Notes under the pieces: generated by a model
What the model saw: only the letters and a program-made list of their open reading frames with translations
Told to the model about the DNA's origin: nothing
The model's database searches: none
In this document: positions 6,393 to 19,243 of the stretch, piece by piece
Layout of the letters: every line of letters begins with the position of its first letter
Numbering within the stretch: the first letter of the stretch is position 1
Assembly (NCBI GenBank): GCA_021323865.1
Contig: JAJPKF010000019.1
Span: 62,001 to 126,000, forward strand
Length of the DNA: 64,000 nucleotides
DNA from: Pseudomonadota bacterium
Lineage (GTDB): Bacteria; Chloroflexota; UBA5177; JAJPKF01
Reading direction: 5' to 3'
Program-made: the position numbers and the translations under genes

Positions 6393-9300
6393 CTACCGCA
6401 GTCGCGAGTGATAGTGCGGCTGGGGCACGTGGCCAAAGACCCGCTTGGCAAACCGCTTCCAGTGAACCCCCGAGTGATGGCAGCTGAAGCACAATGGCGA
6501 CTGTTTGCGACGTGGTCCCGCGGTGTTTGATGCTACCTGGGCATCGTAGGCGAACCCGGACGTCTCGAAGTAGCCACTGCCGTCTGGAACCGCCAGGGAC
6601 GAAGTCGCCGTCACGTCGTTTCCGGCACTGACTTCGGAACCCGGATTAAAACTCCAATTTCCGTTGGAGTCCGCCGCCGCGGTTCCCAAGTAAGACCATC
6701 CCTCGCCGTATCCCTGGTCGGAAGCGCCAATGCTGGCTGCAAGGTACAGGTCCACGAGCGCGAAGGGACTGGAGAAGCCACTGATCACGCTGGTATCGGC
6801 GGTACTGATTGAGGGTATCCCCAGGTCGTCGTTGGGACCGAACCCGAAGCAGCTCGAGCCGCCGCTGTAGAAGCAGATGCCGCCCTGACCGTTGGAGGCC
6901 ATGGAGTTGAACCGCATCAACACGTGGACGTCGGAGTCGGACGTCGACTGTCCAACGAGAATGCCGCGGGCTCCATTCAGCCAGATCGAGTTGGTCAAGG
7001 CACTGTCGTACATTGGAGTTTCCCCGCCAACAACCGGCCCGGATAGGGATGCCCGGCGTTCGGCGGCGACATGAAGGGACATGAGTTTGGGCGACTGGCG
7101 TGCGGCGAATCCGGTTTCGAACGAGCTGTTGCCGAACACAATTCCATTGCCGGTGTTGGGCGACACATAGCCGACATAGTTGCCATAGATGCCGTCACCG
7201 CTCTCGGAAAGAACATCCACTCCGTCGGCGCCGTTGCCGGCAATCACGTTACCGCCGAAGCCGAATGGTAGACCGCCAACGTTGTTGTTTGATCCGAGAT
7301 ACAGGTAGATCCCCGCAAAGCCGTTGCCGACGTTCACATTCGCATCTGAGGCCGCGTCGACGCCGATCTCATTCCCCAGGATGGCCGAATAGTTGGTGTC
7401 GAGCCCGTCAACTCCGTCGTTGAAGTTCCCGGAGATGACGTTGCCTTCGCCGGTACGGTACCCACCGATGGTGTCGAGGAGGGTGCCATACATGAGGACG
7501 CCGTCGTAGCCGTTCGCGACCGGCGCGGTCCCGGCGGCATCGGTGCCGATGAGGTTTTCCCGTACGATGTTGGAGCCGCCCCCCGAATCCTCGAACCCGT
7601 AGTTGACGTTCCCACTGAGGACATTCGGGTCCACGATGGCCCGGCCGCCGGCCGTGCCGAAGGTGGCCCCCCCGTTGATCTGTACTCCGTTGCCATTGGC
7701 CACTGCGGTGGCTCCGTCGGGCGACAGCCCGATGAAGCTGCCGTCGACGATATCGAAGTAGCCGCCCTTACCGATGTAGACGCCGTTCCCCGAGAACCGG
7801 GTGATGGACAGGCCTTCGGCGCTGTCATAGGGGGCGCCGATTGAAAGCCCGTTTCCGCCTGCCGTCAACTGACCATACAGCCAGATGGTGAGGATCGCGT
7901 TGTCACCCGACGCGAGCACGTTGGCGTTTTGCACGGACTTCGGCTGGCTGTACCCATCGATATAGGTCGAGGGGGCGGTCAGGCTGGGGAGGGCCGTCGT
8001 TGGTTTGATGGCGCAGACTGGCACCGACTTGGTTTGAATGGTCATGTTGGAGCACTGGGCAGCAGGAATCTTAAAGTCGATCTCATCGCCCTGGCCATCG
8101 CTGTTGGCCATCGTGATGGCAGCACGCAGCGAGCAGGCGGACGTCGTGCAGGTGGCATTCGAGTTGGACGTGTTGTTCACGATGAGCTGCTGCCCGACCG
8201 GCACGTCACGGGAAAACGGTGATGTCTGGGCCGGGTAGCCGGACTCGATGTCCGTGGCTGTTGCGACGATGTGCTGTCCGCGGCTCAATGTATGCGCGTA
8301 TTGCGATTTCAGAAGATTCCAGCGGCTAAAGTTGGTGCATGGGGGCGAGCCGCACGTCCCAGCCTGAACGGTCCCGAGCCACGTCAACCCCTCATCGTCG
8401 GAGGCGCTCGGCGCGGAGTATAGCTCGACCGTGTCGCCCGTTTGGGCCTCTCCCGTGATTCGCTGAGTCGTGGCGACAAGGACGAGAGGACAGGGAGTGA
8501 AGTCGTTGGGGTTGTACCCACGGGTGTAGGACGGCCCGTAGGTGCACAGCGCCGGCACGAGGCCGTTTAGGCCGATGCCGCCAAGCTTGTTTGCTGCGAA
8601 GATGTTGCGATTGATAGACACATGAACGGGGTCAATCGAGCTCGAGCCGAGATTGACGCCCCAGCCGGCGTTGTCCGCGATGTAGTTCTGACCGCTTGAG
8701 GACCCCACTACGCCGATGCTGTCGGCGCTCGTATAGTTGCCGGCAAACACGCCGTCGGCAGCATTCGGCATTGCTCGGCCGCCGCTGGTGACGCCGATAT
8801 AGTTGCCCTCGAGCTTGTTGAGAGATCCGGCGCCGCCCAGCAGAACCACACCGTCGGCCCCATTGCCGGAGACGACATTGCCGTCACCGGCCGCAGTCCC
8901 ACCGACCAGATATTCGATGGAGCTGTTCAGCACGACTCCGCCGGCGCCATTGGGGAGTGGAGCATTGTCACCGGCGTCGACGCCGACGTAGTTGCCCTGA
9001 ACCACTCCGCCGATCGGGCCCTCTTGCTGCCCGTTCAAAATGCTGCCAAGGATCCCGTACGTTCGGTTACCGCTGATGAGGTTGCCGGCCCCCGGACCGC
9101 CGATCTGGTCAGGCGCCGGATTGTTGGATGCATCGAGAGCGGTGTCGCTAAAGATCGCCAGCCCGTCGAGATTGGGGATTGGGTTCGTGCCCGTCCGGTC
9201 GGTGCCGATGTAGTTGCCCTGCACCGTGTTTCCGTAGGAGCGGGTCAGCTCGATGCCGTAAGTGTGATTTCCTGAGATCACGTTGCGGCTGGCGGCGGTG

Positions 9301-9968
9301 GTCCCGCCGATGGTGGTCTTGAATGCCGTGATGCCCACAATGAGACCGATGTTGTTGGGGCCGGGGGTCTTCCCATCCGGGTATACGCCGATGAAGTTCC
9401 CCCAGATGAGATCTCCGTTGTTGGGGATGATGGCGGCGCCCGCCTGGCCCACGATTCGTATGCCGGCGCCACCTCCGGGGCCGCCCGCCTGGCTTGGATT
9501 GAAGTGGGTGATGGTCAACCCATCGACCGTATCGTTCGATCCCGCGATGTCCAGTCCGTCGGCCCCTGGTACATCGCTTCCATCGATCTGGACCAGTGGT
9601 GAGGCGCTGTCGTCCTTGTTTAGCGCGTCTACATTCTTCGCGGAGCCGGGCTGGGAATAGCCGTCGATCACCGTGTTGACCGCCGTCAGCGTGGGCAGGT
9701 GGGTCCTCAACTGGATGAGACAGCAGGTGGACGAGGGGATGTTGAAGGTGATGGTGTCACCCGAAACGTCGGCATTCGCCTGCTCAATGGCGCACCGGAG
9801 GGAGAAGGTGCTACCCCCACACGGAATGTCCGCATTGGTGTTGACGGTCAGCACGGTTGCGGCATGTGCGCGCGGAATCACCGTCTGCCCCGAGACGATG
9901 AATCCGACCACGAGCAACAGTCCGGCGCCGATAACTCCCAGTCGTCTCAGGCAGGCGTGAGTCCTCAT
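6393..9968 (-). CDS. Secreted CSLREA-type right-handed beta-helix repeat protein with a CXXCH-containing C-terminal tail
   Basis: Start placed at MRTHACLRRLGVIGAGLLLVVGFIVSG (signal peptide) with AAGGAG SD; two VNTxADxxC...CSLRxAIxxAN CSLREA-like domains; many NxISGNxxxGI/VxGNYIGT beta-helix repeats; C-terminus PLCFSCHHSGVHWKRFAKRV. Confidence 0.8.
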   Translation of the reverse strand: MRTHACLRRLGVIGAGLLLVVGFIVSGQTVIPRAHAATVLTVNTNADIPCGGSTFSLRCAIEQANADVSGDTITFNIPSSTCCLIQLRTHLPTLTAVNTVIDGYSQPGSAKNVDALNKDDSASPLVQIDGSDVPGADGLDIAGSNDTVDGLTITHFNPSQAGGPGGGAGIRIVGQAGAAIIPNNGDLIWGNFIGVYPDGKTPGPNNIGLIVGITAFKTTIGGTTAASRNVISGNHTYGIELTRSYGNTVQGNYIGTDRTGTNPIPNLDGLAIFSDTALDASNNPAPDQIGGPGAGNLISGNRTYGILGSILNGQQEGPIGGVVQGNYVGVDAGDNAPLPNGAGGVVLNSSIEYLVGGTAAGDGNVVSGNGADGVVLLGGAGSLNKLEGNYIGVTSGGRAMPNAADGVFAGNYTSADSIGVVGSSSGQNYIADNAGWGVNLGSSSIDPVHVSINRNIFAANKLGGIGLNGLVPALCTYGPSYTRGYNPNDFTPCPLVLVATTQRITGEAQTGDTVELYSAPSASDDEGLTWLGTVQAGTCGSPPCTNFSRWNLLKSQYAHTLSRGQHIVATATDIESGYPAQTSPFSRDVPVGQQLIVNNTSNSNATCTTSACSLRAAITMANSDGQGDEIDFKIPAAQCSNMTIQTKSVPVCAIKPTTALPSLTAPSTYIDGYSQPKSVQNANVLASGDNAILTIWLYGQLTAGGNGLSIGAPYDSAEGLSITRFSGNGVYIGKGGYFDIVDGSFIGLSPDGATAVANGNGVQINGGATFGTAGGRAIVDPNVLSGNVNYGFEDSGGGSNIVRENLIGTDAAGTAPVANGYDGVLMYGTLLDTIGGYRTGEGNVISGNFNDGVDGLDTNYSAILGNEIGVDAASDANVNVGNGFAGIYLYLGSNNNVGGLPFGFGGNVIAGNGADGVDVLSESGDGIYGNYVGYVSPNTGNGIVFGNSSFETGFAARQSPKLMSLHVAAERRASLSGPVVGGETPMYDSALTNSIWLNGARGILVGQSTSDSDVHVLMRFNSMASNGQGGICFYSGGSSCFGFGPNDDLGIPSISTADTSVISGFSSPFALVDLYLAASIGASDQGYGEGWSYLGTAAADSNGNWSFNPGSEVSAGNDVTATSSLAVPDGSGYFETSGFAYDAQVASNTAGPRRKQSPLCFSCHHSGVHWKRFAKRVFGHVPQPHYHSRLR

Positions 9969-9978
9969 GCTAGGCTCC

Positions 9979-12900
9979 TTAGATCTGCAGCGCGCTGGCG
10001 TAGACCAGGCGTCGTTCCTTGGGCTGGAAAGAGGCGTCCTTTGATGCGCCAGGTTTGCCGAGCGAGGAGGAAACTCCAAGCTCGATCGGATAGATCTCAT
10101 ACTCGCGGAAGATCAACCGGAACGGCACGGAGCCTGGAGCATGAGGAAGATCAAAAGTCGTGCTCCAGATGAACTCGTACGGGAACCCGCGCTGCGGGTC
10201 TGCCGTCAACTCGTAGTTGGCGTTGGGCACCGGCACCCATGCGAGCTCACTGGGCTTGCCGTCCGTCTCGCCGGGGATGCCGGGCATCTGCTGTTCGACG
10301 CTGACCTCGATGCCGCTGGGGGCGATCCCGCCTGGCCCCAGGGTGTAGCCGTAGCCCATGACGCTGACCTTCACAAGCTTGGGATCACTGGTACTCACCT
10401 TGGTCTGAACCTGTGCCAAGCGATGCGGAGCCAGCTGGGCGAAGTCGGCCAGCACCACCCGAGAGAGATGGACGGTATCGGGGTTCGATATGGAGTGTGG
10501 CTGGTAGCGGGCCAACGCCATGCGAACGAACGGAAAATACGCTGTACCCCAATGAAACTGGACGTCGGCGTACCATAGGCAGCGTTCCGGATCCCAGACC
10601 ACGGGATGGCCGGCGACTGCAACCGGTATCGGGCTGGCCGCCTCGGCCCCTCCCAGCTCTTCGAGATAAAGGTAGGACTGGGTGGCAACGGCGCCGGGAA
10701 AGTTCGTGGTCATCGGAGGGTCGGTGATCTCGGCGGCCCCCCACAGGGGATCCGCTCCCCACTGGGTTACGTAGCCCTTGAGATCCTCCTCCACGCCGCC
10801 GGTCGCCAGCGTGCTCTGCTTGCCGCCTCGTTTTCGCCCCGGCCGGCCGGTATCGGTCTGGCCACTGTCGTTGATCAGCACCACGCCGAGCAGCTCGCCA
10901 TCGCCCGACGAGAACCATGGCCGCTCGAGGTAGACACGAAGATACCCACCGGCGCGAAGCGTCTTGGTGATGTCGCCGCTTTGGGATGGTGTCCACTTGA
11001 AGGACGGCACCACGTAGAGGAGCTTGGGAGCGTCAGGTCGAGCCGTGCTGGGCACGTCGATGGTCGCGACGGGGCTGGGACGAGTCGTCGGGATGGTCCC
11101 GGCCGCGACTCCGCTTTCGGGGAAGTACTCCAGAAACCGCGTTGTGCCCGTCGCGGTGTAGCTCACTCGACGGTACTTGGTGTCCCCAAACATGTGCCGC
11201 CGGTTGTCCGCGAGCGTGAAGGTGACCTGGGTGTCGGTGGGCTGGAGGGGAATCTCGACCACGTGCTTCTGGCCCTTGATCTCCGTCGGCAGCGTGGGCG
11301 GCGTCGACGAATTTGGAGTGCAGTGATCCAGAGTCAGGTCGTCGCGCGGCTCGGTCCAGTTGGCATTGACGTCCAGCTTGATCGTGCTCGGCCCATCGAT
11401 GGGCATGGGATCGGCTTCGAGGATTGCGTAGGTCTCGCCCACGAAGTCACGATAGGCGGTCAGGTTGGTGAACTTTGGCTGGATCAGCGGCTGCTGCACA
11501 GCGTGCACCAGGGTGATCTCTTGGAATGGCTCGATGGGCCACATCTCCCCGTTGAGCGCAAACTTCTGGAGCTGGCCATAGGACTTGGCGTCGAGCTGAC
11601 CGGCCTTGTAGGCCTCCTCCATCCAGCCCCAGATGCCCATCAGGTCGAGGTCCGGCTGTAGGAGATATGCGCTGAGTCGGATGGTTTGCTGTTGCGCCTT
11701 GGCGAGGTAGACCGTGAGCAGTCTGGCGTTGGCGTCCCAGGCAGGGGCAGATGTCCCTTCGAGGACCCGGATTCTGAAAGGTTTTAAGTACGGCCACGTG
11801 CCGATGAAGCCGAGATTGCCGCTGGGCATCGTGCCTGGCGGGCCGAACACCGAGTAGGGCGTCAGCCCGGGGAGGTTGAACAGCGAGGCGCCTCGCGCCA
11901 GAACGTCCGGTAGATAGGGAAGGACCAGGTTATCCGTGCTCTCCACGGCGCTCGAGTCGAAGGCGCCATCGAGCGTCGAAAGCTCTGCGTACGCGTTGGG
12001 ATCGAGCCCTCCTCCGGAGAGATCGAACATTCCGTGATGCTCGGCCATGAGCTGAGTGGTTCGGGGCGACGCAATGTGCCGGGTGGAGTGGTTCAGAAAG
12101 CCGGGGAAACCATATGAGGTCAGCTTGGTGACCTCTTGTGTGGGCGTCGCGTTGTAATTGCTCCGAATCACCAGGCGTTCGGTGGATTCACCCGGAGACC
12201 CGCTGATATCGTCCCGAAGAATCAAGGCAGGCGTGGGCACCGGCTCAAATCGCCGATATCGCACCGGTGGACTGCCCTTGGGCGGTGCCTCGTATAGGTC
12301 GAGATTGGACGACAGAGGCGGACTGTTGCCGGCAAGGTCGGCGGCTCGTGCACGGATTCGATAATCAACGCCAAAGCGCAGGAAAGGCAGACTGCCCTTG
12401 GCGACACCGAAGTGGGTTACCAGGCCCACGCCCTTTCCCGGTTGATTGTTGGTCATTGCGGGTTTGTCGTCGATGCCCACGTGCTGCCCCGGCCGGTCCG
12501 CAGCCAGACTCCAGCCCATCCATCGCATGAGGGACTCATGGAGATAGAGGTCGGGGCTGGTGCCGCCACTCTCTGCTCCGGACGGGTCCTGGGTGGCGGC
12601 CAGCGAAACGAATGCCTCATCCGGGTGGACCGGGTTGAACCACTTGTGTGCCGAGGGCGCGTGCACGAATTCATAGCTACCGGGCAGGGTGGAGCTGGGA
12701 TTGGCTGGGTCGAATGACGCCGCACGCATCATCAGTGAGTGCCACGCCTTCGTCTGTGAGTCCCAGATGTCGTAGCGAATACCGCGAACACAGTCTTCCG
12801 CATAGAGCTTGACCGAGGTGCTTGAACCGCCTTCCGCCGCCGTGTTGCTATTCGCGGCATTGGGGAAGATCTTCGTCAGATCCCCCGCCTTACCCGTCTG

Positions 12901-13992
12901 GATCACCGAGAATCCTCCGGATCGCAGAGCCGGCAAGCCGAGCTGGTTGCGAAGTCCGACGCGCTGCCCCTCGAACATCGAGAGGACCTGCCGGACCAGG
13001 CCGATGTACTTCAATGCGGCTCCGTCGACATCCACCTGAAAGAGGTTGAACTTGGTGGTGTTCGAGAGGTCCAGGAAGCCTTGCTTGACGTCGCCCGAGC
13101 TCGAGGTGGGCAGGAAGTCGGACGCATCCAACGTGAAGTAGGACTGTGGCGTCAGGTCATTGGCCCCAAACGGCGCTACCAGGCGCACTAATGCGCTGGG
13201 ATCGCCCGTGGGGAGGGCAGGATCGAACGGCACGATCAAATCGACCGCCAGCCCCAGGCGCCGCATCAGCTCCGGGTATTTCGTCAGAGACGAAACCATC
13301 CGGTGGAAGTCCAGCTTTTGCCCTCCCTTGGTGGGCTGCCGAGGATGATAGTCCTCCCGCCGGTAGAAGAACAATGCATGCTGCAGGAATGCTTCAGCCG
13401 GGGAGGTGGGAGCGCGAAAGGTCTTTCCGCGGCCCAATTTCTTTTGTTGCCCCAGGTGGTCCTCGAGGTCTTCCCCCGCGGGAAACCCATTGGCGAAGTT
13501 CTGGCCGATTCCGCCTCGCATAAAGGAGTCGGTGGTCGGCAGGTTGGGAGTGAGGTAGTTGCCGTTGTCGTCGGTCTGCAGCATGGATTGGGTAATCACG
13601 TCCACATACTGCGAATTGATGTGGTTGTACAGCGGGGCGATCGGAGAGCTGATGACGAAGCGATTCTGATAGTCCTGGAACTTATAGTGCTTGACATAGG
13701 TAGAGCTGGAGAATAGATATCCCCACAGCGTCTCGTCGGCGGCAAAGCTCGAAGGATCGGCCTTCGCCGCGAGCACCTTGGTGACGCTCGAATTGTGGAA
13801 TCGCAACTTGAACGACGCCGTCTTCAGCTTCTGAGGCCACATCAGAAAGTCGGGAAACGTGGCGAGGGTCGTGTCCGAGCTCGAGTACAGCCGTGGCGAG
13901 ACCAAGACCGTGAGCCGCAGGTACTTTTTGCCGCTTATGGTGGTGAGACCGTTCGGGAGAGCGGTCCACATAATCAGCTGCTTGTTACTCAT
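9979..13992 (-). CDS. Giant hypothetical protein (1337 aa), no obvious signal peptide
   Basis: Uninterrupted 4 kb ORF, tightly spaced between two same-strand giant genes; no known family recognised. Confidence 0.75.
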   Translation of the reverse strand: MSNKQLIMWTALPNGLTTISGKKYLRLTVLVSPRLYSSSDTTLATFPDFLMWPQKLKTASFKLRFHNSSVTKVLAAKADPSSFAADETLWGYLFSSSTYVKHYKFQDYQNRFVISSPIAPLYNHINSQYVDVITQSMLQTDDNGNYLTPNLPTTDSFMRGGIGQNFANGFPAGEDLEDHLGQQKKLGRGKTFRAPTSPAEAFLQHALFFYRREDYHPRQPTKGGQKLDFHRMVSSLTKYPELMRRLGLAVDLIVPFDPALPTGDPSALVRLVAPFGANDLTPQSYFTLDASDFLPTSSSGDVKQGFLDLSNTTKFNLFQVDVDGAALKYIGLVRQVLSMFEGQRVGLRNQLGLPALRSGGFSVIQTGKAGDLTKIFPNAANSNTAAEGGSSTSVKLYAEDCVRGIRYDIWDSQTKAWHSLMMRAASFDPANPSSTLPGSYEFVHAPSAHKWFNPVHPDEAFVSLAATQDPSGAESGGTSPDLYLHESLMRWMGWSLAADRPGQHVGIDDKPAMTNNQPGKGVGLVTHFGVAKGSLPFLRFGVDYRIRARAADLAGNSPPLSSNLDLYEAPPKGSPPVRYRRFEPVPTPALILRDDISGSPGESTERLVIRSNYNATPTQEVTKLTSYGFPGFLNHSTRHIASPRTTQLMAEHHGMFDLSGGGLDPNAYAELSTLDGAFDSSAVESTDNLVLPYLPDVLARGASLFNLPGLTPYSVFGPPGTMPSGNLGFIGTWPYLKPFRIRVLEGTSAPAWDANARLLTVYLAKAQQQTIRLSAYLLQPDLDLMGIWGWMEEAYKAGQLDAKSYGQLQKFALNGEMWPIEPFQEITLVHAVQQPLIQPKFTNLTAYRDFVGETYAILEADPMPIDGPSTIKLDVNANWTEPRDDLTLDHCTPNSSTPPTLPTEIKGQKHVVEIPLQPTDTQVTFTLADNRRHMFGDTKYRRVSYTATGTTRFLEYFPESGVAAGTIPTTRPSPVATIDVPSTARPDAPKLLYVVPSFKWTPSQSGDITKTLRAGGYLRVYLERPWFSSGDGELLGVVLINDSGQTDTGRPGRKRGGKQSTLATGGVEEDLKGYVTQWGADPLWGAAEITDPPMTTNFPGAVATQSYLYLEELGGAEAASPIPVAVAGHPVVWDPERCLWYADVQFHWGTAYFPFVRMALARYQPHSISNPDTVHLSRVVLADFAQLAPHRLAQVQTKVSTSDPKLVKVSVMGYGYTLGPGGIAPSGIEVSVEQQMPGIPGETDGKPSELAWVPVPNANYELTADPQRGFPYEFIWSTTFDLPHAPGSVPFRLIFREYEIYPIELGVSSSLGKPGASKDASFQPKERRLVYASALQI

Positions 13993-14006
13993 CGCGTCCC
14001 CCGTTC

Positions 14007-17000
14007 CTAGGCGGCAAAGGCTTGGACATAGTTCAGCCAGTCCTGCTTCGAGATCATTTCGCTCACGGTCAGATGGTTCCCGGATGCGGCCATGAGGTGT
14101 GGCGGCCCGAGCTGACCCTCTTCAGATGACCCTCCGACACTCTTCTTGACGGGTCCGATGGAGACTGAGATGCTGAAGAAGCAGAGGCCGATCTCGAGTG
14201 TAATCGTGGCCGAACCGCTCACCTTGCCGGCATCCGGTCCTGAAATCTGCCAGGATAGCTGGATGTGGATGTCGAGGCTGACGGAGACCATTCCCAGAAC
14301 TTCCAGATTGCCGCCGGCATCGAAGAAGCCCGTCAGAGTAGCTGCATTGGTCGGTTTGTCGTAGTCGAAGTAGATTCCCACCATGACATGGCAGCCGCCG
14401 CTGGCAACGCCGAAGTCGAGGGCTACGTCGACGCCGAACTCGAGGCCCGCGTGCAGGCCATCGAGGCCCTGTGGGCCCATATCGATCTCGACGAACCCGC
14501 CCCCGCCAAAGATGTAAATGGTGAGGACGAACATGTTGCTCTTCGTGCAGAAGTTGAACGAGATGACGATGGCATCGCCGAAGAACGGGATGTCGATGCT
14601 CGCGCCGATCGAGATGTTCTGCAGGCTGAAGGCGCCCACGGAGATCGTGGGCAGCTGCAGGGTGTAGCCGGCCTTGATATCCGTGTCGGTGACATCCAGG
14701 AACGGCGGGTCAGAGAAGGAGTTCAGGAACGAGCGCAGACCGTTGACGAACTTGAGGAAGTCCTGGAAAACGATCTGGTTGACATCCGGCTCGACCTTGA
14801 GCTTCTGACCGCTTTTGATGATGAACTTGAGGCCCACGAACGGGATGGCCAGGACGCCGAATTCCAATGAGAAGTAGGCGAGCTGGCCGATGATCTGGTA
14901 CGTGGGCTCGGTTGAGCCGTCGAGGGGCACGGTGATCTTGATGTCGATGGCCAGCTGAGCGCCCGTGTGCGGCTGAGCGGCAGTGCTGATAGTCGTATCC
15001 GACAGGTTGTCGGTGAACGTTGCGGTCCCTGTGCCCTTCACCTTGCTTCCGGTGATAGAACCGACCAGATAGAAGGGCCAGGTCGCGCCGGCGCCGGTGC
15101 GGTAGATGTTGATCTGGGTTACGGATGAGGAGGGCGGCGCCTGATTGACGGTGACTTTGATCTTCCGTCCACCACTGTGGGCGCCGTTGGCGGAAACATC
15201 GTACTTGGTGCCGATGCTGACCACGCTCTCGTCGGTGGCGGTCTTGTAGGTGGCAGCCCAGCTGTGATTGCAAGGGTTCTTGCCGTTGTTGGTGACATTG
15301 CCGGCGCCGATGTCCTTCACGGTCGGTGCCATCGGCGGCGATACCGACGGCGGCGAAGCCGGCTTGGTGGGGTTGCCGTTGTCGTCGACGAGGTTGGCGA
15401 GGAAAATGAAAATGTCGACGAGGTTGTCGGTCAGCCAGTCGTAGGTCAGGACGACATTCTGACCTTCTTGCTTGATCTTCAGACCGGGAACCTTCAGCAG
15501 GTCCTGGGTGAAGTCGGGCAGCGGGCCGAGCAGCGCCGTAAGAGGGATTCCGCCCAGAATCTTGGGGACGGCGTTGCCCAGCAGGCTCGAGGGATCGCCG
15601 AAGAACTTCGTGGGGTCGAATTGGCCCATCCCCATCTGGCTCAGGTCGGAGGTGTTGCCGTTCATGCCGGCACCGACCGGTCCCAGGAGTCGTGAGAGGC
15701 CGGCAATGGAAAGGTTTGGCGTGATGGCGCCGGGCGTTACCAGCTGACCGCTGGCTCCAGGACCGAAGACCATCGGCACCTGCTGAGACTCCATGGTCCC
15801 GTAGAGATACAGGGGATGGATGAGGTGGGCGAAGATCTCGCCCTTGTTGTTGGGAGCGGTGAAATCGTAGTTGAGGTATTCGTCCGCCAGACGCACGAGG
15901 GGGCTGCTGCCCCGCGGATTGCTGGGGTTGGTGGGCTGCTGACCAATGAGCTGTTTGATGGCCGGTACGTCCACCGCCGCGGCGCCCACGGTTGGGAAGA
16001 ACTGCGGCTGATCCGGCTGCTGGTTAAACCACGAGGAAGCCGGATCTTGGGGGACCGCGGCTCGGAAGGTAATTGTCTCCGTCTCCAGACTTGGATCCGT
16101 TCCGTTCGGGCTGGAGGTTGGCGCACTGGGCGCGAAGGCGACGTGCTGCTTCTTCAGCTTTATCGTGGTCCGAGTATCGTTGTCCTGTTTGGAGTACTCG
16201 GTCAGCACATTGTTCATGTGGGACGCGTTGTTCGGGGCTTGGGCGATGGCCTTGCCCACGAAGATCATGGGCGCGGTGAACTCCGAGGTGTGGCCGTCCC
16301 AGTCAGTGCCCTTGAGATGCCAGAGGAAATCGGTCGCCGTGCCGTTCACGAGAATCTGCGGCCAGAAGCAGTCTTGCGCCTGGACGCTCGGGTCCTCGCT
16401 GGAGACGACCGAAATCGGCGGAACCAGGTCAGGAGTCACGAGCGTTGTGACTTTCATGCTCTTGAAGGGCATCTTCCGCTGCGCATAGCCCTGTGGCCAG
16501 TCCATGGTCCCGGGACCGACCTCCACGACGGTCATGTCGCCGGGCGGGTAGTCGGCATCCGTGAAGCTGAGGTCCGGATGGCGCACTTGGATGTACATGC
16601 GCTGGAAGAGGTAGGCGATGATCGGGCCGACATTCGGTGCGAAGGTGGGCACCCGTCGGAACTTTCGCTCGGTGACCTTGATCAGGGTTGCTCTGAAGCC
16701 GAACGGCCAGAGGTAGCCGGCATAGGCCACTTTGACGTAGTGGTCGCGGGCCATCGTGCCCTTGTGGATCCACTCCGTGACCTCGACCGGGTTCGGCTGG
16801 TCCTGCCACATCCCGTGTACGTCGATCCACGCGCCCAGACCGGTCAGCATGAGCCGGTTCACCTTGGCTGGGAGCGGTGTGTACGAATTGCCCACGTGGT
16901 CTGTGGACACCCAGTCGGAGGTCAGGCGAACAATCGAGTAGCGGTCCCGCGCGTCGAGCGATGTCCGGAAGGGGTTCACAGAGTTGGCCGGCGGAAAATC

Positions 17001-18989
17001 AGGTGGCTCGGGGTTGGTATTGAAGGTGCAATCGGGCGAGTAGATCGCACGGATGGTCTGCTTGCCGGCGTACTTGGGCTCGTTGTCGTCATGACCCTTT
17101 CCGCTGGCGTCGCGCACGCCCAAACGCGTGTGCCACAGTTCCGTGGTGTTCTTCGTGGTCACCAGGGCCGAGGTGTGATTCCAGTAGCCGTTGGCCGGAG
17201 GCGAGATAAACAGGCCGAGTGGCGCTTCGATGGCCGTGTCGGTACTGGCCGGTTGATTGATGTAGGGGAGTTCGCCATTGGGTGGATCGGCGACGATGTT
17301 CACACTTTGGGTCAGCTTCGACCAGTCGAGCACCGCTTCGAGGGTGTAGGGAATGGTGGTGATCGTTCCCGGCACCTTGAACCCGAGCCGGCTGGGCCCT
17401 GATATCCGTGCCGCCACGCTTCCCGGGCTGGGCAGCGGATCGTTGCCCGACGTCCCACTATCCGGATCTGTTGCCGGAACGGGATAGTTGCTGTCCACCT
17501 CGAAGAAGGCCTGCTCGGCAATGTTCTGAGGCGGGAAGTGTGCAACCATACGGGCGTCGGAGGCGTTCCGAACCAACTGTGGCGGGTTACCTCCGCCTAC
17601 CTGCAGGTAGAAGCCGATGTAATGGAGGCGGACGGCCAACAGGTCGTCCGGTCGCAAAATCGAGACGATATAGTCCGGAACCGCCAGCTCGGCGGGGGTG
17701 CCGCTCTGCGGATGATGCAGTCTGAGATGAGCGCGGCCGGCGCGGGGCCGGCGTCTTCGTTCCCAGTGCAGCTCAACGGCCAGCGGCTCTTCCGGAGCAA
17801 CAGGCTCGGAGACGGCGCCGGCAAGGGAGCCACTGATGCCGTGAACCGCGGGTGCGCAGGACACCTCGGACCGGCCGGCTGACTCACGGAGGCGGAACGT
17901 AGCTGCCTCCTCGGAACGCCCGACAAGCAGGCTACAACCGTGAATGTGGAGCCACCGCGGCTCCTGGCTGTAGGTCGCCACGAGGGTGGACTCGCGGCCC
18001 TGCCCGCTGAATGAAGTTGCATACCGAATGTTGCTCAGCGGCAGGCCGAAGGCCTGCCGGTCCGAGCCGTAAACGCTGGGGGACGGATGGAAGAGAAGCG
18101 CCTCTTCCTCCGGCGCAGAGGAGGCTGCCAACACCCGGCTAATCCCTCCCCTGGCTGTCTCGCCGCTCTCCATGGCAATCGTGTCGAAACCACCTTGCAC
18201 GGTGCTGAACCCGGAACCCGCCGGTCCCTTCGGCAGATCGAGCGACCAGCGCCGCCGCCCGCGGGAGAGGACGATGAGAGACCGCCGGCCGGGCGCCCGC
18301 CCGAGGAGGCTCGGCTCGTCAGGGGTCAGCAGACGCAACGCGCCGGTATCGGCAACGATCTCTCCCCCGAACCCGGAAAGGCGGGCAAACCGCCGGCCGG
18401 TAAAGGCGAGCTGCCAGTCGGCAGAGAACCCTGCCTTTGCTTCGCCGCCCAGCTGCAGCATCCCGGAGGAGTCCAACCGGAGCGTTTGCAACCCCATGGC
18501 GATGCTCGACTGCGCCGGCTCCTTGCCGAGGAGCCAGGCCTCAAAGGGGACCGTGGATCGGAAGCCGCCCACTCCCATGCGGAGGGTCATGCGCCAGCCC
18601 CCCAGACCCAACCGGATATCGGCCAGAAGGTCGGCTGGGATGGTCGTGCCCGCGTATCGGGCATTCTGGAGACGGACCGTCAGCCGTCCGGACGCGCGGG
18701 TGAGACTCAGCCGGGGACGGCCGGCGAAACGACGGACGTCAATGATCCAGCGATCGGCGCCTCGGTAACGAAAGATGATCCGCCCGGGCTCTTCGATGAC
18801 GCGAAAGGAGTCGGAGAGGGTCGATTCGACGGCGCGAACGGCCGGAGCGGCGCCCACGGCGGTGGCGCCCGCAAGTCCCAGAACCTGACGTCGGGAGAGG
18901 TCGCCTGGATGTGCGGCCGGGCCGTCGGATACCGCCCGTAGCGCGTCTTCCTCGAGTGCCGAGACGTTGATCCGGCCGGCGAGTTTCAT
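14007..18989 (-). CDS. Giant Tat-signal protein of unknown function (~1660 aa) with beta-rich C-terminal region
   Basis: Start placed at MKLAGRINVSALEED with AAGGAG SD; SRRQVLGLAGATAVGAAPA Tat-like motif; C-terminal alternating hydrophobic/glycine beta-strand pattern. Confidence 0.75.
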   Translation of the reverse strand: MKLAGRINVSALEEDALRAVSDGPAAHPGDLSRRQVLGLAGATAVGAAPAVRAVESTLSDSFRVIEEPGRIIFRYRGADRWIIDVRRFAGRPRLSLTRASGRLTVRLQNARYAGTTIPADLLADIRLGLGGWRMTLRMGVGGFRSTVPFEAWLLGKEPAQSSIAMGLQTLRLDSSGMLQLGGEAKAGFSADWQLAFTGRRFARLSGFGGEIVADTGALRLLTPDEPSLLGRAPGRRSLIVLSRGRRRWSLDLPKGPAGSGFSTVQGGFDTIAMESGETARGGISRVLAASSAPEEEALLFHPSPSVYGSDRQAFGLPLSNIRYATSFSGQGRESTLVATYSQEPRWLHIHGCSLLVGRSEEAATFRLRESAGRSEVSCAPAVHGISGSLAGAVSEPVAPEEPLAVELHWERRRRPRAGRAHLRLHHPQSGTPAELAVPDYIVSILRPDDLLAVRLHYIGFYLQVGGGNPPQLVRNASDARMVAHFPPQNIAEQAFFEVDSNYPVPATDPDSGTSGNDPLPSPGSVAARISGPSRLGFKVPGTITTIPYTLEAVLDWSKLTQSVNIVADPPNGELPYINQPASTDTAIEAPLGLFISPPANGYWNHTSALVTTKNTTELWHTRLGVRDASGKGHDDNEPKYAGKQTIRAIYSPDCTFNTNPEPPDFPPANSVNPFRTSLDARDRYSIVRLTSDWVSTDHVGNSYTPLPAKVNRLMLTGLGAWIDVHGMWQDQPNPVEVTEWIHKGTMARDHYVKVAYAGYLWPFGFRATLIKVTERKFRRVPTFAPNVGPIIAYLFQRMYIQVRHPDLSFTDADYPPGDMTVVEVGPGTMDWPQGYAQRKMPFKSMKVTTLVTPDLVPPISVVSSEDPSVQAQDCFWPQILVNGTATDFLWHLKGTDWDGHTSEFTAPMIFVGKAIAQAPNNASHMNNVLTEYSKQDNDTRTTIKLKKQHVAFAPSAPTSSPNGTDPSLETETITFRAAVPQDPASSWFNQQPDQPQFFPTVGAAAVDVPAIKQLIGQQPTNPSNPRGSSPLVRLADEYLNYDFTAPNNKGEIFAHLIHPLYLYGTMESQQVPMVFGPGASGQLVTPGAITPNLSIAGLSRLLGPVGAGMNGNTSDLSQMGMGQFDPTKFFGDPSSLLGNAVPKILGGIPLTALLGPLPDFTQDLLKVPGLKIKQEGQNVVLTYDWLTDNLVDIFIFLANLVDDNGNPTKPASPPSVSPPMAPTVKDIGAGNVTNNGKNPCNHSWAATYKTATDESVVSIGTKYDVSANGAHSGGRKIKVTVNQAPPSSSVTQINIYRTGAGATWPFYLVGSITGSKVKGTGTATFTDNLSDTTISTAAQPHTGAQLAIDIKITVPLDGSTEPTYQIIGQLAYFSLEFGVLAIPFVGLKFIIKSGQKLKVEPDVNQIVFQDFLKFVNGLRSFLNSFSDPPFLDVTDTDIKAGYTLQLPTISVGAFSLQNISIGASIDIPFFGDAIVISFNFCTKSNMFVLTIYIFGGGGFVEIDMGPQGLDGLHAGLEFGVDVALDFGVASGGCHVMVGIYFDYDKPTNAATLTGFFDAGGNLEVLGMVSVSLDIHIQLSWQISGPDAGKVSGSATITLEIGLCFFSISVSIGPVKKSVGGSSEEGQLGPPHLMAASGNHLTVSEMISKQDWLNYVQAFAA

Positions 18990-19243
18990 GGGCTCACTCC
19001 TTCCCGACAATCCGCAATTGGGCCTGCTGTCGCAAGAGCGATTACCCCTTGACCGCCCCCCGGTTTTGTCCTACCCGTGCTACCTCAAACCATCGTCAGT
19101 CACTTTGAATATGCTCAGTATGAAACTTTCGCCTATCCATGTCAACCCCGACTTCGAGGCCCACCCATCCATGCCAGTTGGGCCCGCTGTGACGACCGAG
19201 ACGCTGCTAGAATCCGGCGAATTTGCGAAGGGAGGCTTGGGCG

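Follow-up and report, generated by a model that had tools for sequence, protein, structure and literature searches.

A conserved pair of very large bacterial proteins, one with a twin-arginine signal and one without, as a candidate Tat hitchhiker complex

Introduction

In twin-arginine translocation (Tat) hitchhiker complexes such as FdnGH and PaoABC of E. coli, one subunit carries the signal, its partner is signal-less, and the two are encoded by adjacent genes (PMC13186574, PMC4273604). The largest Tat cargo known is ~142-150 kDa (PMC13186574, PMC6708511), and the field has yet to settle whether TatA rings adjust to the size of their cargo (PMC13186574). Some genomes hold more than one TatA, including specialized forms, as with the TatA paralogues of Campylobacter (PMC4148689) and TatAd of Bacillus (PMC6708511).

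Here we describe a locus in a 64,000-nucleotide stretch of bacterial DNA (the window, to whose full length the gene coordinates below refer) that shares the hitchhiker layout. Its first two genes, A and B, encode members of two large protein families that occur in several phyla and on conjugative plasmids and are not named in the curated libraries that we searched. A search of open-access papers found none on the A-B pair.

Results

Three coupled genes on the minus strand

The locus consists of the following features:

19117..19145, minus strand: sigma-70-like promoter candidate TTGACA-17-CATACT, ~130 bp upstream of A (0.1 expected by shuffling)
14007..18989, minus strand: gene A, 1660 aa from its ATG, as judged from the open reading frame, its start and homologues
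13993..14006, minus strand: A-B junction, a gap of 14 bp
9979..13992, minus strand: gene B, 1337 aa, without a clear signal peptide
9966..9982, minus strand: B-C junction, a gap of 10 bp, with the B stop overlapping the AAGGAG ribosome-binding site of C
6393..9968, minus strand: gene C, 1191 aa from its ATG, with a Sec-type signal and CSLREA-like or right-handed beta-helix repeats

Called mechanically, the reading frame of A opens at a TTG (19010) and that of C is longer, reaching 10100. The sequence upstream of the A start codon is GGAAGGAG, and the B-C junction reads ATCTAAGGAGCCTAGCATGAGG. Divergent gatCAB genes flank the array on one side, and a small convergent ORF by a pyridine-nucleotide oxidoreductase gene flanks it on the other. 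An initial annotation of this DNA had described three long minus-strand genes for a Tat-signal, a signal-less and a Sec-signal beta-helix protein, 10-14 bp apart, with the Shine-Dalgarno sequence of the third lying over the stop of the second, and all of these features are present.

The A-B pair is conserved across phyla

The A-B arrangement in the window is not a product of chance, because many genomes encode homologues of both proteins in this order. More than 30 loci have A immediately upstream of B and on its strand. This holds for every locus with both ends present, and the gap between the two genes has a median of 14 bp (range -8 to 152; n = 28 pairs). These loci come from the window's phylum, Acidobacteriota, Streptomyces, Burkholderiales, and rhizobial and Ruegeria replicons. 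Members of the pair are also found in plasmid records of Cupriavidus, Diaphorobacter, Rhizobium, Sinorhizobium, Ensifer, Bradyrhizobium, Agrobacterium, Ruegeria and Streptomyces, and two genomes (G006 and G074) have two copies each. B occurs in 5 of 101 genomes searched, a count that includes the window's own genome, and A in 10 of 301. Profile searches detected B in the window's phylum (9 of 400 genomes), in the phylum of an Acidobacteriaceae genome (7 of 199) and, when the profile was made from the long rhizobial form, in a proteobacterial phylum (5 of 399). Both genes are absent from all five order relatives of the window's genome, so that their distribution is patchy, as fits horizontal spread. 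In three order relatives, the gatA locus has none of A, B and C and also none of the other genes of the window's left flank that we tested, and it therefore does not make a clean empty site.

The neighbors of the pair differ between loci, near relatives excepted. The copy on an Agrobacterium vitis plasmid (L083:15688-28504) adjoins dpdE-J genes, and those of R. ruizarguesonis (L079) and S. meliloti HM006 (L099) lie near restriction-modification genes. In two related genomes, a third gene of ~570-610 aa, without a Pfam match, comes right after B (L051:4380-6218 and L052:1-1738), and in two from the Acidobacteriaceae phylum this place is taken by a 2OG-Fe(II) oxygenase-like gene (L037:14163-14780 and L077:3656-4285). 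Scans of viral contigs added a single A-B contig, from IMG/VR (L057/L058), on which an intact pair with a Tat-less A sits beside genes that by eye resemble those for terminase, capsid and HNH proteins; this could be either a prophage neighborhood or host flank.

Pairwise distances among A proteins closely follow those among B proteins, with r = 0.92 over 24 pairs and 0.86 when close pairs are left out; in 2000 permutations the best correlation was about 0.45 and none exceeded 0.46. This agreement shows that A and B are stably inherited together. It is also what would be expected of adjacent, co-inherited genes whose products make no physical contact.

Features of the two proteins

Protein A of the window is divided as follows:

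residues ~32-55: twin-arginine signal
to ~430: variable N-terminal region
~437-1168: conserved core
~1170-1345: variable insert
~1345-1625: C-terminal glycine-rich region with alternating beta strands
end of the protein: conserved tail, WxxYxxAFA

In the long forms of A, the variable insert is about 800 aa and by eye looks helical. Hydrophobic and polar residues alternate in 43% of sequence windows in the C-terminal region, compared with 14% +/- 6% in shuffles and 6-21% in the remaining parts of A. If A is exported in a folded state, amphipathic strands of this length might form a greasy groove or sandwich, which could be the face that binds B or lipid.

B has a conserved N-terminus (QxIxWTALPxG...LSV.VSPRL), conserved RPWFSSGDGE and ARYQP motifs, and an internal stretch, YRxRARxVDLAGNS, that reads by eye as an Ig/FN3-like strand pair; its form in the window is YRIRARAADLAGNS. 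In Streptomyces nigrescens (L043:13725-18617), B contains an inserted peptidoglycan-binding stretch, scoring just below the cut-off of Pfam PG_binding_1, as would suit a protein outside the cytoplasm. The Ensifer and Bradyrhizobium forms of B are truncated remnants, and A was not found beside them. No relatedness between A and B themselves was detectable.

Most A proteins carry a Tat signal and B has none evident

We assigned signals using a purpose-written rule that combines motif and hydrophobicity, together with reading by eye. A twin-arginine motif and, behind it, a hydrophobic stretch are found at the start of 20 of the 31 intact A proteins, a set that excludes the truncated L047; the signals of L049 and L115 were assigned by eye. 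Signal-bearing A proteins occur in the window's phylum, Streptomyces, Acidobacteriota and Proteobacteria, and every intact A of the long proteobacterial group has a signal (in S. meliloti, for example, TRRDFLGAAAAAPIMTATANLALA). The N-terminus of A in the window, SRRQVLGLAGATAVGAAPAVRA, is Tat-like and lies below the cut-offs of the curated libraries. A recognizable signal is missing from 11 of the 31 intact A proteins, so Tat export is not universal in the family. B has neither a twin-arginine motif with a hydrophobic stretch nor any other clear export signal, and the hydrophobic-segment scores of the B starts are low, except for the mildly hydrophobic starts in the window (0.99) and L058 (1.35). 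The window's genome encodes TatC (E = 3e-49). An A-B complex would have a mass of ~325 kDa in the window and 250-572 kDa across the family.

On balance, we think it probable that A and B are obligate partners in one very large, beta-rich complex and that the Tat signal on A carries the signal-less B out of the cytoplasm. The initial annotation had suggested that the 1337-aa protein might be exported together with a partner, and this is the reading best supported by a Tat signal on A, none on B and, as described below, tatA genes beside three other loci. Alternatively, only A might pass through Tat, and B might stay behind in the cytoplasm to serve A as its dedicated chaperone, proofreading partner or inhibitor. 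A has a signal and B no clear one, the signal-less partner of a Tat substrate can act as a chaperone within the cytoplasm, and the coupling of the genes and the matching distances would look identical in that case. However, the Tat chaperones that are known are small proteins of mainly helical structure, whereas B is as large as A, appears beta-rich by eye, and contains the DLAGNS-type Ig/FN3-like stretch and, in L043, the peptidoglycan-binding insert. We consider a cytoplasmic B unlikely, while still the most serious of the alternatives.

tatA and peptidase genes adjoin the pair

Downstream of B, several loci encode a TatA family protein or a peptidase:

L056:24637-24804, same strand, 50 bp after B: tatA, S. 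meliloti LMB1 plasmid pC (TatA_B_E, 2.4e-9, 36.7 bits)
L081:17576-17713, same strand, ~20 bp after B: tatA, Ensifer adhaerens CTYH.Ch1 plasmid pCTYH.Ch1_1 (5.7e-8, 32.3 bits)
L112:3216-3449, same strand, behind B and an M35 peptidase gene: tatA, genome G874 (2.2e-8, 33.7 bits)
L080:20249-20845, ~2 kb downstream of B: M35 peptidase, Ruegeria
L112:3539-4168, downstream of B: M35 peptidase, G874
L081:17780-18388, downstream of B, there a remnant: M10 peptidase, Ensifer
L082:15199-15786, downstream of B, there a remnant: M23 peptidase, Bradyrhizobium
L114:3036-4190, downstream of B: trypsin-like peptidase, G846

All three tatA genes exceed the Pfam TatA_B_E cut-off of 21 bits; no TatA family gene was found in the remaining plasmid records. 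A genome has one to few tatA genes, and to find three of them so placed among some forty loci is, by estimate rather than computation, hard to ascribe to chance. The linkage was seen only in the proteobacterial long-A group and could derive from one ancestral event. Secreted or exported peptidases lie near B in five loci and belong to four unrelated families. In the window, the slot downstream of B is occupied by C.

These neighbors also bear on the idea that A-B is generally a cytoplasmic complex in which twin-arginine motifs matter in some lineages only. The pair is still intact around the 11 A proteins that have no Tat signal, as this idea would predict, but tatA and secreted peptidase genes adjoin it elsewhere, and the Tat signals are clustered on the tree. 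When mapped onto the B tree, which has long branches, the presence of a signal on A requires 4 changes, compared with a mean of 9.2 for shuffled labels. The pattern would fit an older trait that was lost several times, and we regard a generally cytoplasmic complex as distinctly improbable.

Gene C is a local addition

C stays below cut-off throughout Pfam, NCBIfam and PHROGs. Its matches to parallel beta-helix, CSLREA and NosD models fall short of the thresholds (18.6 vs 19.45, 17.7 vs 25 and 15.9 vs 23.6 bits), and its Sec-like signal was read by eye. These weak repeat matches are its likeness to the CSLREA- and NosD-type parallel beta-helix proteins (TIGR04214, TIGR03804, PF05048), from which it differs in that the matches remain below cut-off and no link to a copper site or nos genes was seen. 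Five weaker matches to C lie on two other contigs of the same genome. One beta-helix relative (G000:C15:60126-62297) has an open frame of ~1600 aa, and one of its matched stretches crosses a TAG.

The initial annotation had proposed a three-protein unit and had named neighborhood conservation of the trio as a check. A-B is kept across phyla, but C is not, as no relative of C stands beside A-B in any other locus tested, and we rejected the trio as a unit for this reason. The conserved unit is the A-B pair, with C a local accessory addition. That A, B and C together build a surface or secreted assembly in which C is the structural beta-helix subunit would be consistent with the position of C 10 bp behind B, the overlapping translation signals, the Sec-type signal and the presence of exported proteins in the same slot of other loci. 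Given the lack of C at the other A-B loci tested and the C-like proteins elsewhere in the same genome, we judge this assembly highly improbable. The "envelope structure" and "large enzyme complex" of the initial annotation remain unsupported guesses.

A and B match no curated family

Searches of Pfam, NCBIfam and PHROGs gave no above-threshold match for A or B of the window, nothing was returned by PADLOC, and comparison with PDB sequences gave no family with either single sequences or profiles, the profile search returning chance-level matches. The initial annotation was correct in stating that two of the proteins have no assignable family. AlphaFold models built from four-sequence alignments have a mean pLDDT of 34.9 for an A homologue and 29.8 for residues 1-1200 of B, and at these values they give no support to a complex.

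Several more specific assignments were dropped. A phage origin for B was set aside after no match was found in phage genomes, a phage tail or contractile apparatus because no structural PHROG was among the matches, and a defense function because PADLOC was empty. A weak NCBIfam tail-tube match (best 0.001) appears in 2 of 17 members. PHROG matches are confined to the L043 member with the peptidoglycan-binding insert, as endolysin. A toxin-like or injection-apparatus module with an exchangeable peptidase, which the frequently plasmid-borne pair with its peptidases of four families and a patatin near L039 might bring to mind, is the least probable of the alternatives in view of these phage-genome, PADLOC and PHROG results.

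Discussion

In the hitchhiker reading that we prefer, the N-terminal twin-arginine signal of A would direct this protein to the Tat translocase, and B would fold with A in the cytoplasm and cross the membrane with it. In some proteobacteria, the operon-borne TatA may enlarge or specialize the translocase for an outsized cargo, and the role of an exchangeable secreted peptidase may be to process the exported complex or to accompany it. In the organism of the window, the downstream slot holds a putatively Sec-exported C, and the genome's own TatC would serve A-B export. The gene anatomy, the conservation and coupling of A-B, the signals and the linkage to tatA and peptidase genes are observed, whereas we infer the physical complex, its joint export, the role of TatA and any activity outside the cell, where the pair might be a surface layer, an enzyme, an adhesin or a toxin-like assembly. 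Size strains this reading, as known Tat cargo is less than half of 325 kDa.

More tentatively, and with considerable doubt, A-B could be the core of a self-contained, horizontally spread export module, A-B(-peptidase-TatA). A folded heterodimer of ~250-570 kDa would then pass through Tat, with a cargo-dedicated TatA in some hosts and a peptidase that matures or arms it, constituting a new class of extracellular machine. If true, the system would raise the known size limit of folded Tat cargo and provide natural pairs of cargo and TatA with which to test the adaptation of TatA rings.

The tatA genes differ from those of Campylobacter and Bacillus in their placement, as they follow A-B at three loci, of which two are plasmid-borne, in an operon without tatC. 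The known Tat hitchhikers are redox enzymes of up to ~142 kDa, whereas A-B, a complex predicted from its genes, has no recognized cofactor domain and would reach 325 kDa.
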